43,125 nt of DNA, from positions 1 through 43,125 of the forward strand of contig CALFOZ010000091.1 of assembly GCA_937919205.1 (NCBI GenBank), given 5' to 3'. The stretch comes from an uncultured Planctomycetia bacterium. GTDB lineage: Bacteria; Planctomycetota; Phycisphaerae; Phycisphaerales; SM1A02. The notes beneath the pieces were generated by a model that worked only from the letters and a program-made list of their open reading frames with translations, was not told the DNA's origin and made no database searches. Below, piece by piece: positions 22,785 through 31,731 of this stretch. Within the stretch, counting starts at the first letter, position 1. The number at the start of each line of letters is the position of its first letter. Position numbers and translations under genes: made by a program.

Positions 22785-24440
22785 ATGCCACAACTCACCA
22801 TTAACGGCAAGACATGCTCCTTTGAAAAGGGCGAAACCATTTTGCAAGCGGCGCTTCGTCACGACGAGGAGATTCCGCATTACTGCTACCACCCCGGACT
22901 TTCCATCGTGGCCAACTGCCGCATTTGTCTGGCTGAAGTGTGGAGTCCAGATCCAAAGACCGGCGCCTTGCGTGCGGGCAATAAATTATTTCCAACGTGT
23001 CAGACGCCAGCGGTTGAAGGCCAAGTGGTGTACACCGATTCTCCCAAAGCCGTCGGCAATCAAAAAGCCGTCATGGAATTTCTGCTCATCAATCATCCAG
23101 TGGATTGCCCTGTGTGCGACCAAGCGGGCGAGTGCCACTTGCAGGATTACAGCTATCAATATGGACGCGGCGAGAGTCGCTTCAAGGAAGCCAAGAACAA
23201 GCGTCCTAAAAAAGATGTCGGCCCGCATGTTCTGTTGTACAGCGATCGTTGCATCATGTGCACGCGTTGCGTTCGCTTCACGCGCGAGGTCACGGGCACC
23301 GGCGAGTTGATGGTGGATGGCCGCGGCAGTATTGAGGAGATTGATATTTTTCCAGGCATCGCGCTGAATAATGAATTAAGCGGCAATGTTGTGGACATTT
23401 GCCCCGTGGGCGCGCTTCTTGACAAAGATTTTCTGTTTCAACAACGCGTTTGGTTTTTGAAGAAAACCCCAAGCATTGATGGCTTGACCGCCAGCGGCGA
23501 CAACATCAGCGTGGAGCACAATGAAGGCGTGATTTATCGCGTGAAGCCGCGCGACAATATTGAAGTGAACAAGTGGTGGATCACCGACGAGGTGCGCTAC
23601 GGTTGGAAGTTTGTGCATAGCGAGAACCGTTTGAAGTTGCCCGCGATCAAGGGACGCGATGCATTTGTGGCCGATGACGCCGCCGCCGCATGGAGCGACG
23701 CGTTGAGCGCAACTATGAACACGTTGGAGAGCGCGGTGAAGAATGGTGGTCGCCTTGGTGTCATGGTCAGTCCAATGTTGACCAGCGAAGATGCCTTCTT
23801 GTTGGCCACAACTGTTCTTGCAATTGATGCGCAAGCCGAACTTGCCGTTGGTCCAATTCCTGTTTTAGGTCAAGACAAAACATTCCCAGGTGGCTTCACC
23901 ATGTACGCCGAGAAGGCGCCCAACGCGCGCGGAGTTCGCCGCGTATTGGAGGCGCTTGCCAAGGGACGCAAAGTGCACGATGCGGCCAGCTTTGAAAGCG
24001 CCGCAAAGTCCAAAGCGATCGCCGCCGCGGTGGTCACGGGAAATTATCCAAGTGACTGGGTCATGCCATCCCTGCACAGCGCGCTGAGCAATGTGAAGTT
24101 GATCGTGATTGACACCTTGCCAAGCACGCTTGCGGACATTGCCCAAGTTGTGTTGCCTGGCGCTACATGGGCTGAAAAAGCCGGCACATTTGAAAACGCA
24201 AAGAACCGCCTGCAAAGCTTTGATCGAGCTATTGCCACCGTTGATTTTGCCAAGGGCGAAAGCCAAATCGCGCTGGAATTGCAAGCTGTTCGCGCCGGCG
24301 TGAAGACCAAGGCCTTTGATGCAAGCGCGACCCGCGCCGAAATGGCGCGCGTTGTTGGCTTGGAGCGATTCACAACGGATCTTCATGCGCCGCCCAAACC
24401 TGCCAAGGTCGCGGGCGACATGGTGTTGATTGAAATCTAA
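22785..24440 (+). CDS. nuoG: NADH-quinone oxidoreductase subunit G-like protein
   Basis: N1b-type Cys set in CYHPGLSIVANCRICLAEVW...FPTC, N5-type HPVDCPVCDQAGEC, N4-type CIMCTRC and VDICPVGAL; 551 aa. Confidence 0.92.
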   Translation: MPQLTINGKTCSFEKGETILQAALRHDEEIPHYCYHPGLSIVANCRICLAEVWSPDPKTGALRAGNKLFPTCQTPAVEGQVVYTDSPKAVGNQKAVMEFLLINHPVDCPVCDQAGECHLQDYSYQYGRGESRFKEAKNKRPKKDVGPHVLLYSDRCIMCTRCVRFTREVTGTGELMVDGRGSIEEIDIFPGIALNNELSGNVVDICPVGALLDKDFLFQQRVWFLKKTPSIDGLTASGDNISVEHNEGVIYRVKPRDNIEVNKWWITDEVRYGWKFVHSENRLKLPAIKGRDAFVADDAAAAWSDALSATMNTLESAVKNGGRLGVMVSPMLTSEDAFLLATTVLAIDAQAELAVGPIPVLGQDKTFPGGFTMYAEKAPNARGVRRVLEALAKGRKVHDAASFESAAKSKAIAAAVVTGNYPSDWVMPSLHSALSNVKLIVIDTLPSTLADIAQVVLPGATWAEKAGTFENAKNRLQSFDRAIATVDFAKGESQIALELQAVRAGVKTKAFDASATRAEMARVVGLERFTTDLHAPPKPAKVAGDMVLIEI

Positions 24441-25923: not shown

Positions 25924-26847
25924 ATGTCAAACACTGGCCTTGATACCGTACTCGCCGCAACAAGTGATCCCGCCGCTTCCCAAGTTTTTATGAAGCAAGG
26001 AAAATCTTTCGAAGCCGACGCCAAATTTTTCGAGGCGCTTGATGCCTACAAGAATGCCGCGCTCGCCAACCGCACCACCACCACGCTGTTCAACCTGGCG
26101 CGCATGCAGGATTACCTTGGCTACGACGACGACGCCATGCGAAGTTACGAGGAGTGCACCCGACTTCCAAATCCTCCCATCAACGCGTTCTTAAATCTCG
26201 CCGTTCTACTTGAGGACGCCGCGCAATTCACCCGCGCCAGCAAGTTGATTCAGAAAGTGCTTGAGGCCAATCCAAATCATCCGCGCGCAAAATTATTCAT
26301 CCGCGATGTGCAAGCCAGCAAGAACATGTTGTACGACGAGGAGCTCGCGCGCATGAAGGGCCGCGAGGAGGCCATGTTTGAATTGCCAGTGGCCGAGTTT
26401 GAACTTTCCATTCGCGCGCGTAATTGCTTGAAGAAGATGAGCATCCGCACGTTGGGTGATTTGCTTCGCATTGGCGAGGCCGAGTTGCTTTCATACAAGA
26501 ATTTTGGCGAGACCAGTTTGGTTGAGATCAAGCAAATGCTCACCGCGCGCGGCTTGCGCTTGGGTCAGCAACTTGATCGCGGCCACTACGACAAGGTTCG
26601 CAGTGAAGTGCTGGAAAAGATGAAGGGCACCGTCGCTGACGGCGTGTTGGGCATGACCGTGGGCACGTTGAACTTGGGTATTCGCAGTAGAAAAGCCCTG
26701 CAATTGCTCGGTATTCAAACGGTCGGTGATCTTGCCGCACGAACCGAAGCCGAGTTGATGGGCGTGAAGAATTTTGGCGCCACAAGTTTGGTGGAAATTC
26801 ATGAGCGTCTTGGTGAACACGGTCTCGCCTTGCGTACGCTTGAGTGA
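25924..26847 (+). CDS. TPR-like N-terminus plus two tandem RNA polymerase alpha-subunit C-terminal-like domains
   Basis: Repeat 1 LPVAEFELSIRARNCLKKMSIRTLGDLLRIGEAELLSYKNFGETSLVEIKQMLTARGLRLG and repeat 2 LNLGIRSRKALQLLGIQTVGDLAARTEAELMGVKNFGATSLVEIHERLGEHGLAL align by eye with E. coli RpoA CTD. Confidence 0.9.
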   Translation: MSNTGLDTVLAATSDPAASQVFMKQGKSFEADAKFFEALDAYKNAALANRTTTTLFNLARMQDYLGYDDDAMRSYEECTRLPNPPINAFLNLAVLLEDAAQFTRASKLIQKVLEANPNHPRAKLFIRDVQASKNMLYDEELARMKGREEAMFELPVAEFELSIRARNCLKKMSIRTLGDLLRIGEAELLSYKNFGETSLVEIKQMLTARGLRLGQQLDRGHYDKVRSEVLEKMKGTVADGVLGMTVGTLNLGIRSRKALQLLGIQTVGDLAARTEAELMGVKNFGATSLVEIHERLGEHGLALRTLE

Positions 26848-28408: not shown

Positions 28409-29026
28409 GTGTTCACAGGAATTATTCAACATATGGTGGCGGTGGAATCACTCGATGTCACGCCGTATGGCAAGAAATTGGTTTTAAATTGCGGCGAGTG
28501 GCCGGGCAATCCCACCATTGGAGAAAGTATCTGCGTGGATGGATGTTGCTTAACGGTGAAGGAGATTCCGCACGGCTCGCTGGCCTTTGATGTTGTTCAG
28601 CAGACATTGCAACACACCACGATTGGCAATTTGCGGTGCGGCGACATGGTGAATGTTGAACGCGCTTTGCGGGCGGATTCATTGTTGGGTGGCCACATGG
28701 TTCAAGGACATGTGGACACCACGGCGTTGGTTCTAGAGGTGGATCGCGCCAACGGTCAATGGCGCGCGCGCATCGAGTCGCCAGCCTCCATTGAGCATGT
28801 GTTGCAAGAGCGTGGCAGTGTGGCGGTTGACGGCGTGAGCTTGACCATCGCCACCAAAGGCCAAGGTTGGTTTGAAGTGGCGCTGATTCCAGAGACGCTT
28901 GCCAAGACAGCATTGCGGTTACGACTTCAAGGCGCGCGCGTGAATATTGAGGCTGATTCCATGGCAAAAATCATCGCCGCTGAAGTGGCTCGACAAATGC
29001 AACTATTGCGAATGCCAGGCGTTTGA
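28409..29026 (+). CDS. ribE: riboflavin synthase alpha chain (GTG start)
   Basis: MFTGIIQ, GESICVDGCCLTV, GGHMVQGHVD, VAVDGVSLTI; two lumazine-binding repeats. Confidence 0.95.
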   Translation: MFTGIIQHMVAVESLDVTPYGKKLVLNCGEWPGNPTIGESICVDGCCLTVKEIPHGSLAFDVVQQTLQHTTIGNLRCGDMVNVERALRADSLLGGHMVQGHVDTTALVLEVDRANGQWRARIESPASIEHVLQERGSVAVDGVSLTIATKGQGWFEVALIPETLAKTALRLRLQGARVNIEADSMAKIIAAEVARQMQLLRMPGV

Positions 29027-29082: not shown

Positions 29083-30372
29083 CTAAAGAACTTTGAACGC
29101 GATCAAGGTCAAGTCGTCCGTGAATTTTTCCTGCGGGTTCGCGCTAAGCAGTTGTTGATCCAGCCTGCGCTCCATGGCGGCAATCATGTCCGCGGGTTCG
29201 GTGATCGAAAGCAGTGCGTGAAGTTCATTCACATAGCGGGGCGAACCTTTGTGTGGTGAACTTTGACTTTCTGGAGGATCCAGAAATGCAAATTCAAATC
29301 CATCCGAATACAGAAGTATTCTGTCACCGGGGTACAGTTGAATTTCTTTCTCCGACCACTGCACGCCATCAAACACGCCAACCAAGCTACCGGGACAACT
29401 GACCATCTCGATGGATTGTGTGCCACGCATCACCATGGCGGCGGGATGTCCCGCGATGGACATGCGCATGACGCGCGTTCGTAAATCAATAATCGCGTAG
29501 ATGGCCGTGGCAAATCGCGTGGTGTTGCTCTGGCGCGCCAACAACTCCCGATTGACGCACGCCAACGCCTCGCTGGGCTGAATGATTCGATATGTGTTTC
29601 CATTGATTTCCTTGGTTGGAAGGCCACGCGCGATCACCATGGTCAGCAACGCCGCGGGCACGCCGTGGCCAACCGCGTCGGCAATAAACAAACCAACGTG
29701 ATGCTCATCCAAGCGCCGCACATCGTAGATGTCGCCACTGACATAGTTCATGGGACGCCACAGAGCGGCCACGGCGCCACCGGAAAAAGTCGGCAGTGTT
29801 TTGGGAAGAAACTCGCGTTGCACTTGCCCCGCCAAATGCAACTCATCCTGCATCTGGGTGACTTCGCCAAGCAATCGATCGGTTTGAATTTCCGCTCCAT
29901 GGTTGGCTTTTCGAAGCGCGTCAATTTCCAATTGCCGTGAAAAAAAACCGCGCAACATTGCGGCCATCACATGCGGGGATTCATCCATCGCCAAGGAGTT
30001 CCATGACAAGTCCATTGACGTCTCGGTGGATGGAGCGTCGGATAAAATTAAAATGGGAATGTTTCGCATTTCAACGCCATCCAGCACATCGGCCAAGCCG
30101 CTGGAATTGTCATTGCGGCTTAGGCAAATCATGACGGCGTGAACGTTGGCGTTTACATGTTCACCCGCGGCGTGTATGGACACGCACTCGAAGTGGACTC
30201 GGTTGTTTAAAATAGTCGCCAGCGTTTCGGGCAAAGCGCCCAGCCTGGACTTGGCGGATTCTCCGGTCACAAATAGAACCCGAATTGTCGGTTGGGGCTG
30301 GGGGATATCGTCTTGTGCCAACATGGTTGGCGATTCTATCGGCGATTCATTTTGGCTTGTTTCAAGCAACAT
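29083..30372 (-). CDS. SpoIIE/RsbU-type PP2C serine phosphatase with N-terminal receiver-like region
   Basis: LAGQVQREFLPKTLP, YVSGDIYDVRRLDEHHVGLFIADAVGHGVPAALLTM, GDRILLYSDGFEFA. Confidence 0.9.
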   Translation of the reverse strand: MLLETSQNESPIESPTMLAQDDIPQPQPTIRVLFVTGESAKSRLGALPETLATILNNRVHFECVSIHAAGEHVNANVHAVMICLSRNDNSSGLADVLDGVEMRNIPILILSDAPSTETSMDLSWNSLAMDESPHVMAAMLRGFFSRQLEIDALRKANHGAEIQTDRLLGEVTQMQDELHLAGQVQREFLPKTLPTFSGGAVAALWRPMNYVSGDIYDVRRLDEHHVGLFIADAVGHGVPAALLTMVIARGLPTKEINGNTYRIIQPSEALACVNRELLARQSNTTRFATAIYAIIDLRTRVMRMSIAGHPAAMVMRGTQSIEMVSCPGSLVGVFDGVQWSEKEIQLYPGDRILLYSDGFEFAFLDPPESQSSPHKGSPRYVNELHALLSITEPADMIAAMERRLDQQLLSANPQEKFTDDLTLIAFKVL

Positions 30373-30406: not shown

Positions 30407-30700
30407 ATGAAAAAACTTTCTCAACGCCAAGTGGATTCCCGCCTGGCCAAACTCCCACACTGGAGTCAAAATGGCGACGCTATTCAGCGCACCTTTCAAT
30501 TTGAAAATTTTGTGGGAAGCATGCGTTTTTTAAATAGCGTGGCGGAAGCGGCTGAACGCGTCCAACACCATCCGGACATTTTGGTGCGATGGAACAAAGT
30601 CACGCTGACATTGTCCACGCATGATGTGGGTGGAATCAGCGAGAAGGACATGGCGTTCGCGGCCAATGCCGATCAGATTTCTGGATTGCCTTCGGCGTAA
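30407..30700 (+). CDS. pterin-4a-carbinolamine dehydratase
   Basis: About 97 aa; FVGSMRFLNSVAEAAERVQHHPDILVRWNKVTLTLSTHDVGGISEKD. Internal ATG of the 30146-30700 ORF. Confidence 0.9.
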   Translation: MKKLSQRQVDSRLAKLPHWSQNGDAIQRTFQFENFVGSMRFLNSVAEAAERVQHHPDILVRWNKVTLTLSTHDVGGISEKDMAFAANADQISGLPSA

Positions 30701-31731
30701 TCGCCCAGCGCCCGTCGCACCAAGATCGCGCGGCTTAAGCGCCCCTTTTCCTCCTCGGCCGCGAATGGATCCATCTGCGCCAGATGCGCTGGTTGCACTT
30801 GTAGCAAGAGTTGCTCCACCGTTTCAATACTGAGATTGTGCAGAAGCCCGCTGGAAATTCCAAAGCGCAACGTGGACAGCAATTTAGTGGCCTCTTCGGC
30901 GCCAAGCAAGCGCGCGACTTTCAGCGTGGCGCGGGCGCGGTACACCTTGTCTTCAATCAGCGGGCGATTTTTTTCCAGCAACATTTGCCGCGCCGTGCGC
31001 TCATAGTCGATCAACTTTGGAATCACCTCGTCACGGAAATGTTGAAGCAATTCCTCCTCGGTCGCGCCCAACGTCACTTGATTGCTCACTTGATAAAAGT
31101 TGCCGATCGCGTCGGTGCCTTCGCCGTAATAACCGCGCACGGCCAAGTGCAGATCTTTCGCGGCGCGCTTGACGCGCTCAATTTCGCCCGAATAGCGCAA
31201 CGCAGGTAAATGCAACATGGTGCCTAGGCGTATGCCGCAACCAACATTGGTTGGACACGCGGTGAGGTAGCCCCAACGTTGGTGAAACGCAAAGTCAATT
31301 GTTTCTTCCAGCGCTTGATCAAATGATCGCGCCAGATCAAACGCCTCGTTTAAACGAAATCCAGGCAAAATACTTTGAATGCGCAGATGATCCTCCTCAT
31401 TCACCATCACTCCAAGTTGCTCGCTGTGTCCCAAGCCAAGCGCGCGGGGAAGCGTGCTTTGAGCAAAATGTTTGGAGACCAGGTGGCGCTCCACAAGAAG
31501 TTGCCGCTCTTGCGCCGAGGCCTGGATCATGTTCACCCACGCCAAGCCGTCGGGAAATTCCGCGCCCAGTGGAGCATGCGTGACCATCTGCAAAACTTCC
31601 TGCCGCTGTGAATCAGAGGCGCGCCCCGTGAATGGAAATCCAGCCAAATTGCGGGCTACGCGAATTCGAACGCTAACCACAACATCGTTGTCATTATTTA
31701 AATTGAAATCGTTTTGGTCGTTCATGCTCAA
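30673..31731 (-). CDS. mcsB: protein arginine kinase McsB-like
   Basis: VVSVRIRVARNLAGFPF, LGVMVNEEDHLRIQ, WGYLTACPTNVGCGIR, LLEKNRPLIEDKVYRA. Confidence 0.93.
   Translation of the reverse strand: MSMNDQNDFNLNNDNDVVVSVRIRVARNLAGFPFTGRASDSQRQEVLQMVTHAPLGAEFPDGLAWVNMIQASAQERQLLVERHLVSKHFAQSTLPRALGLGHSEQLGVMVNEEDHLRIQSILPGFRLNEAFDLARSFDQALEETIDFAFHQRWGYLTACPTNVGCGIRLGTMLHLPALRYSGEIERVKRAAKDLHLAVRGYYGEGTDAIGNFYQVSNQVTLGATEEELLQHFRDEVIPKLIDYERTARQMLLEKNRPLIEDKVYRARATLKVARLLGAEEATKLLSTLRFGISSGLLHNLSIETVEQLLLQVQPAHLAQMDPFAAEEEKGRLSRAILVRRALGDYAEGNPEI

Follow-up and report, generated by a model that had tools for sequence, protein, structure and literature searches.

A TPR protein with two alpha-CTDs outside RNA polymerase in nearly all sampled Planctomycetota

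Textbooks describe the alpha-CTD as a part of RNA polymerase, and positions 259 and 261 of the E. coli alpha subunit are contacts of sigma region 4. Here we describe a gene from a stretch of 43,125 nucleotides, analysed as a whole (the window), whose product P0001 combines a TPR region with two alpha-CTDs, CTD1 and CTD2 (Table 1). The domains themselves are known, while their core, phylum-wide architecture outside RNA polymerase, with a more slowly evolving CTD1, appears to be undescribed in the literature searched. Our literature search found no description of this kind of protein, and the passages retrieved from a PVC signature paper do not mention it. The initial annotation of this locus knew of no function for such a protein and left it to a search whether the architecture was catalogued; we likewise found no described function, and no curated full-length family among the NCBIfam and Pfam models fits P0001.

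Table 1. Positions of the features of the locus in the window
Feature	Position	Strand	Basis
TPR + double alpha-CTD protein gene (P0001), 307 aa	25924..26847	+	ORF/translation, Pfam, phylum-wide homologues
TPR region, about 3.5 repeats, helices aa 16-135	25969..26328	+	Pfam over cut-off, AlphaFold2, Foldseek, longer homologues
CTD1, alpha-CTD, aa ~148-215	26365..26568	+	Pfam, profile search, alignment residues
Inter-domain helical linker, aa 219-233	26578..26622	+	AlphaFold2 secondary structure; weakly conserved
CTD2, alpha-CTD, aa ~243-306	26650..26841	+	Pfam, profile search, alignment residues
NADH-quinone oxidoreductase subunit G-like protein, upstream	22785..24440	+	Pfam, synteny; conserved neighbour in part of order
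MATE-family transporter, ends 32 nt 5' of P0001 gene	24476..25891	+	Pfam PF01554
SpoIID-domain protein, starts 33 nt 3' of P0001 gene	26881..28389	+	Pfam PF08486
Riboflavin synthase alpha chain (lumazine-binding), closes same-strand run	28409..29026	+	Pfam PF00677
SpoIIE-type phosphatase, just past gene cluster	29083-30372	-	Pfam
ATP:guanido phosphotransferase-domain protein (McsB-like by reading), near SpoIIE-type phosphatase	30673-31731	-	Pfam

The open reading frame starts with ATG, with GGAG about 7 nt 5' of the start. The stand-alone composition proposed in the initial annotation was confirmed by Pfam: models for both RNA_pol_A_CTD and TPR (TPR_7, TPR_2, TPR_8 and TPR_14) scored above their cut-offs, and there were zero matches to the alpha-NTD. 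RNA_pol_A_CTD (PF03118) reached 122.7 bits against a cut-off of 23.8 (whole-protein E 5e-36) over aa 148-207 and about 242-302. A whole-genome profile search placed the CTD matches at 26365-26544 and 26650-26814, each above the cut-off alone; in the coordinates of the initial annotation the first domain starts at about 26383. The possibility that these are generic HhH domains was rejected, since HHH_5 scored 21.8 bits, below its own cut-off. When the PDB was searched by sequence, CTD1 matched alpha subunits of E. coli and others, and CTD2 matched Bacillus-type alpha. NCBIfam rpoA models matched the CTD part alone and far below their cut-offs.

A rearranged rpoA fragment unique to this assembly, raised at the outset as something that would undo the proposal, is excluded. 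Comparison with the genome's own rpoA showed that gene to be intact on a separate contig (C155), encoding 338 aa with one CTD, and copies of P0001 that are 97-98% identical occur in independent assemblies. Relatives across the phylum and the pure clades described below also argue against a fragment or an assembly artefact. The gene beside rpoA on C155 was read as that of ribosomal protein L17. Phage or plasmid origin was also rejected: none of the places matched in 50,697 phage or 72,556 plasmid records reached 80% coverage of the query, and RNA polymerase alpha genes were what the annotation named beneath the matches listed. No relatives were found in a scan of viral contigs.

The residues first assigned to the two domains are present. 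CTD1 has R164, N167, C168, N193, G195, S198 and E201, a DNA-contact set (265 determinant) complete but for K298, which is replaced by T. We do not take this replacement as loss of DNA binding, since T is also found in 25 of 25 planctomycete RpoA. CTD2 keeps R254, R256, N283, G285, S288 and E291, with the changes noted earlier, K257 at N268 and A258 at C269. E. coli position 267 is R in both domains (R166 and R256). The two units, estimated by eye at 55-60% identity, are in fact 48% identical (29/60 residues; mean 49% across 25 genomes). The acidic sigma-contact face, equivalent to D259/E261, is represented in CTD1 by E158/E160 in P0001 and by D158/E160 in most homologues; the same face of CTD2 is not conserved. 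The residues make it likely that both CTDs bind DNA in the minor groove, and a protein contact via the 257-261 face of CTD1 is suggested. The partner in this contact, and any involvement of RNA polymerase, are a matter of inference.

An AlphaFold2 model of P0001 based on 72 homologues has a mean pLDDT of 83 but a pTM of 0.45, so the domains are credible and their mutual arrangement is not. The TPR part has pLDDT mostly >90, and the CTD helices come in the expected alpha-CTD order. In Foldseek comparisons with this model TPRs rank first and RNA polymerase entries (9msh_G, 8y5l) lower, where the displayed alignments have a high rmsd. Phycisphaerales proteins are about 310 aa long, while homologues beyond this order mostly have 430-500 aa and additional N-terminal TPRs.

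Judging from sequence matches, a full-length relative of P0001 is present in nearly all sampled Planctomycetota. Our genome survey covered Planctomycetota genomes only and gave matches in 292 of 294 of them, including 155 of 155 good-quality ones, a tally that rpoA alone can meet and that was therefore read together with row-level matches. The best matches listed cover most of the query, with E from 1e-91 to about 1e-57. Of 59 genomes searched with an rpoA model, nearly all have one rpoA plus, in another reading frame, two more CTDs. A scan of genome contigs gave 259 loci, the best 80 of which are titled as planctomycetes or as uncultured or unnamed bacteria, save one. This locus (L041, "Bacteroidia bacterium") has a 58%-identical homologue together with spoIID, ribE and a SpoIIE-type gene; since this is the Phycisphaerales gene order, its title or binning is probably wrong. 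Three genera of the source organism's own family seem to have lost the gene: in their genomes (G314, G317 and G318, 88-96% complete) only the rpoA CTD was found and no P0001 gene. G314 and G317 retain the customary MATE neighbour but not the gene next to it, which makes local gene loss likely. Any role of the protein is dispensable in these three, where its gene is apparently missing, and this counts against the interpretation preferred below.

Conservation was evaluated on an alignment of 148 sequences covering both CTDs. The R265 equivalent is arginine in 100% of them, in CTD1 and in CTD2. CTD1 further has N268 in 86%, C269 in 95%, G296 in 100%, S299 in 99% and E302 in 100%; the values for CTD2 are 91% for K/R at 268, 78% for A at 269, 98% for G296, 97% for S299 and 99% for E302. 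Position 267 is R in 96% of CTD1 and 94% of CTD2 sequences and mostly S, A or other in the phylum's RpoA. A DNA face kept in both CTDs, the extra basic residues R166/R256 (position 267) and K/R257 (position 268), and near-universal occurrence in Planctomycetota would all suit a nucleoid-associated protein that bridges DNA by two minor-groove CTDs, oligomerises or docks via its TPR and makes no contact with RNA polymerase. We regard this main rival as rather unlikely. Two-point bridging is not universal: three sequences of family f48 (L116, L129 and L169) have a broken CTD2 DNA face, the G296/S299 motif KNFGxTS being absent (e.g. KGIKENHIAE), with CTD1 intact. A pure DNA binder also leaves unexplained why the 257-261 face is more constrained in CTD1 (entropy 0.57) than in RpoA (1.38) or CTD2 (1.99). 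Separately, one locus (G220:C65:6112-6279) scored 38 bits for CTD1 and 78 for CTD2, the opposite of the usual pattern.

Mean pairwise identity across 26 genomes is 70% for CTD1, 57% each for RpoA-CTD and RpoA-NTD, 48% for CTD2 and 38% for the TPR region; in 91% of the genome pairs, which are not independent, the value for CTD1 is higher than that for RpoA-CTD. CTD1 and RpoA differ little in how well the DNA face is conserved, and the largest excess constraint of CTD1 lies at position 259. In a tree, the sequences of CTD1, CTD2 and RpoA-CTD separate into three clades or splits, each of them pure (support 0.97, 0.80 and 0.70, respectively), and the architecture is therefore older than the radiation of the phylum. 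Because the sigma-contact face of CTD1 is conserved, we favor a role at promoters with RNA polymerase. CTD1 also keeps the acidic residues of the 287 face (E286 99%, E288 93%). With the DNA and 261 faces, these could make P0001 a decoy whose CTDs sequester alpha-CTD-contacting activators, or sigma, and lower output. This we consider very improbable: a pure protein decoy has no need of strictly conserved DNA contacts, and near-universality and conservation above that of its model would be unusual for one. Against a role at promoters, the conserved acidic residues by the DNA helix could serve another partner or folding.

Gene order offers a further line of comparison. The arrangement in the organism's own order is nuoG-MATE-gene-spoIID-ribE. 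Of 80 related loci, 58 gave a MATE match, nearly always immediately 5' of the gene, and 59 a SpoIID match; SpoIID is a neighbor in further families and classes too. Beyond the organism's class, it is common for the gene to lie just upstream of ruvA. Coordinates were compared for the 93 genomes that had both matches among the hits listed, a sample that favors strong RuvA hits and under-represents the Phycisphaerae, which are not ruvA-linked; in 64 of these genomes ruvA follows the gene on the same strand within 400 nt. The median gap from the end of the gene match to the start of the RuvA domain is 43 nt. This proximity, and a TPR-CTD-ruvA-ruvB run confirmed by Pfam, raise the possibility of a partner of RuvAB in DNA recombination or repair that places HhH-type CTDs on branched DNA. 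Several observations make this improbable. The string in L116 (by Pfam) and L129 (by clustering) is gene-ruvA-ruvB-queH-spoIID-tgt, followed by apparent yajC and secD, and may simply be old. In the window, L117, L120 and L132 no ruvA adjoins the gene, the order in L120 and L132 being gene-spoIID-tgt. The organism's own genome has the gene even though RuvC gave no match up to E = 0.001 and RuvA_N only a marginal one (7.8e-4), although RuvB is clear; RuvC was also not found in several genomes of family f15, and ruvC is located away from the P0001-type gene. Furthermore, the CTDs match alpha-CTD best and not generic HhH models. Our reading is that of an old gene string with the P0001-type gene at its 5' end, which does not decide function. 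The neighbors ruvAB, spoIID and tgt give no pointer to transcription, and this counts against a transcription cofactor as well.

The interpretation we prefer, with a confidence just short of even, is that P0001 binds DNA and serves as a cofactor of transcription by providing alpha-CTDs in trans. Both CTDs would insert the R265-equivalent arginine into the minor groove of A+T-rich, UP-element-like DNA. CTD1 may reach region 4 of sigma, or a factor that targets the alpha-CTD, via positions 158 and 160, CTD2 may chiefly provide additional DNA grip via K/R257 and R256, and the TPR region may dock a partner. Alpha-CTD contacts would thereby be added or positioned in trans at promoters where the two CTDs of RNA polymerase itself are insufficient. 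Of the roles listed in the initial annotation, a decoy, a bridging co-activator and a nucleoid protein each retain some probability. Beyond the initial annotation, the gene proved to be ancient and near-universal, its CTD1 to be conserved above RpoA-CTD, and ruvA linkage to extend over much of the phylum. Planctomycetes probably have in the P0001-type protein a core element, so far unrecognised, of their gene-control or chromosome machinery. Somewhat more tentatively, transcription initiation or chromosome organisation in Planctomycetota may use an extra ancient core component, a trans scaffold with two alpha-CTDs; with similar caution, this scaffold may reach DNA without relying on the alpha dimer of RNA polymerase and be under greater constraint than the polymerase's own alpha-CTD. 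A near-universal protein with two alpha-CTDs outside RNA polymerase suggests a general component of gene expression or the chromosome that is missing from the picture based on Proteobacteria and Firmicutes. The hypothesis is open to test in Planctopirus limnophila, a tractable planctomycete with genome-wide transposon data; passages from the main text of that study do not mention such a gene (PMC10632474).

Among known systems, the RuvA helix-hairpin-helix domain shares with P0001 the HhH type of DNA-binding domain and often the gene neighborhood, but in P0001 the alpha-CTD model scores far above HHH_5. BREX PglW and PRK07758 (NCBIfam) likewise have an alpha-CTD-like stretch outside RNA polymerase, but P0001 stays far below their cut-offs, with 31.6 bits against 990 and 42.5 against 115, respectively, and does not share their overall architecture. 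The helices of the TPR region resemble those of TPR proteins (PF13176, PF07719, PF13428 and others), with designed TPRs and TPR co-chaperone domains as the best structural matches, yet no specific TPR subfamily was found for them and they are fused to alpha-CTDs. P0001 is not an RpoA, as the alpha-NTD for dimerisation and beta/beta' assembly is absent. It is nevertheless closest to the RpoA alpha-CTD in domain family and predicted helix order, with equivalents of R265/N268/C269/N294/G296/S299/E302 in CTD1 and most of them in CTD2. It differs from the E. coli domain in E at K297 of CTD1, R at 267, and, in CTD2, K/R for N268 and A for C269, and from RpoA as a whole in carrying its CTDs as a tandem pair behind a TPR region.
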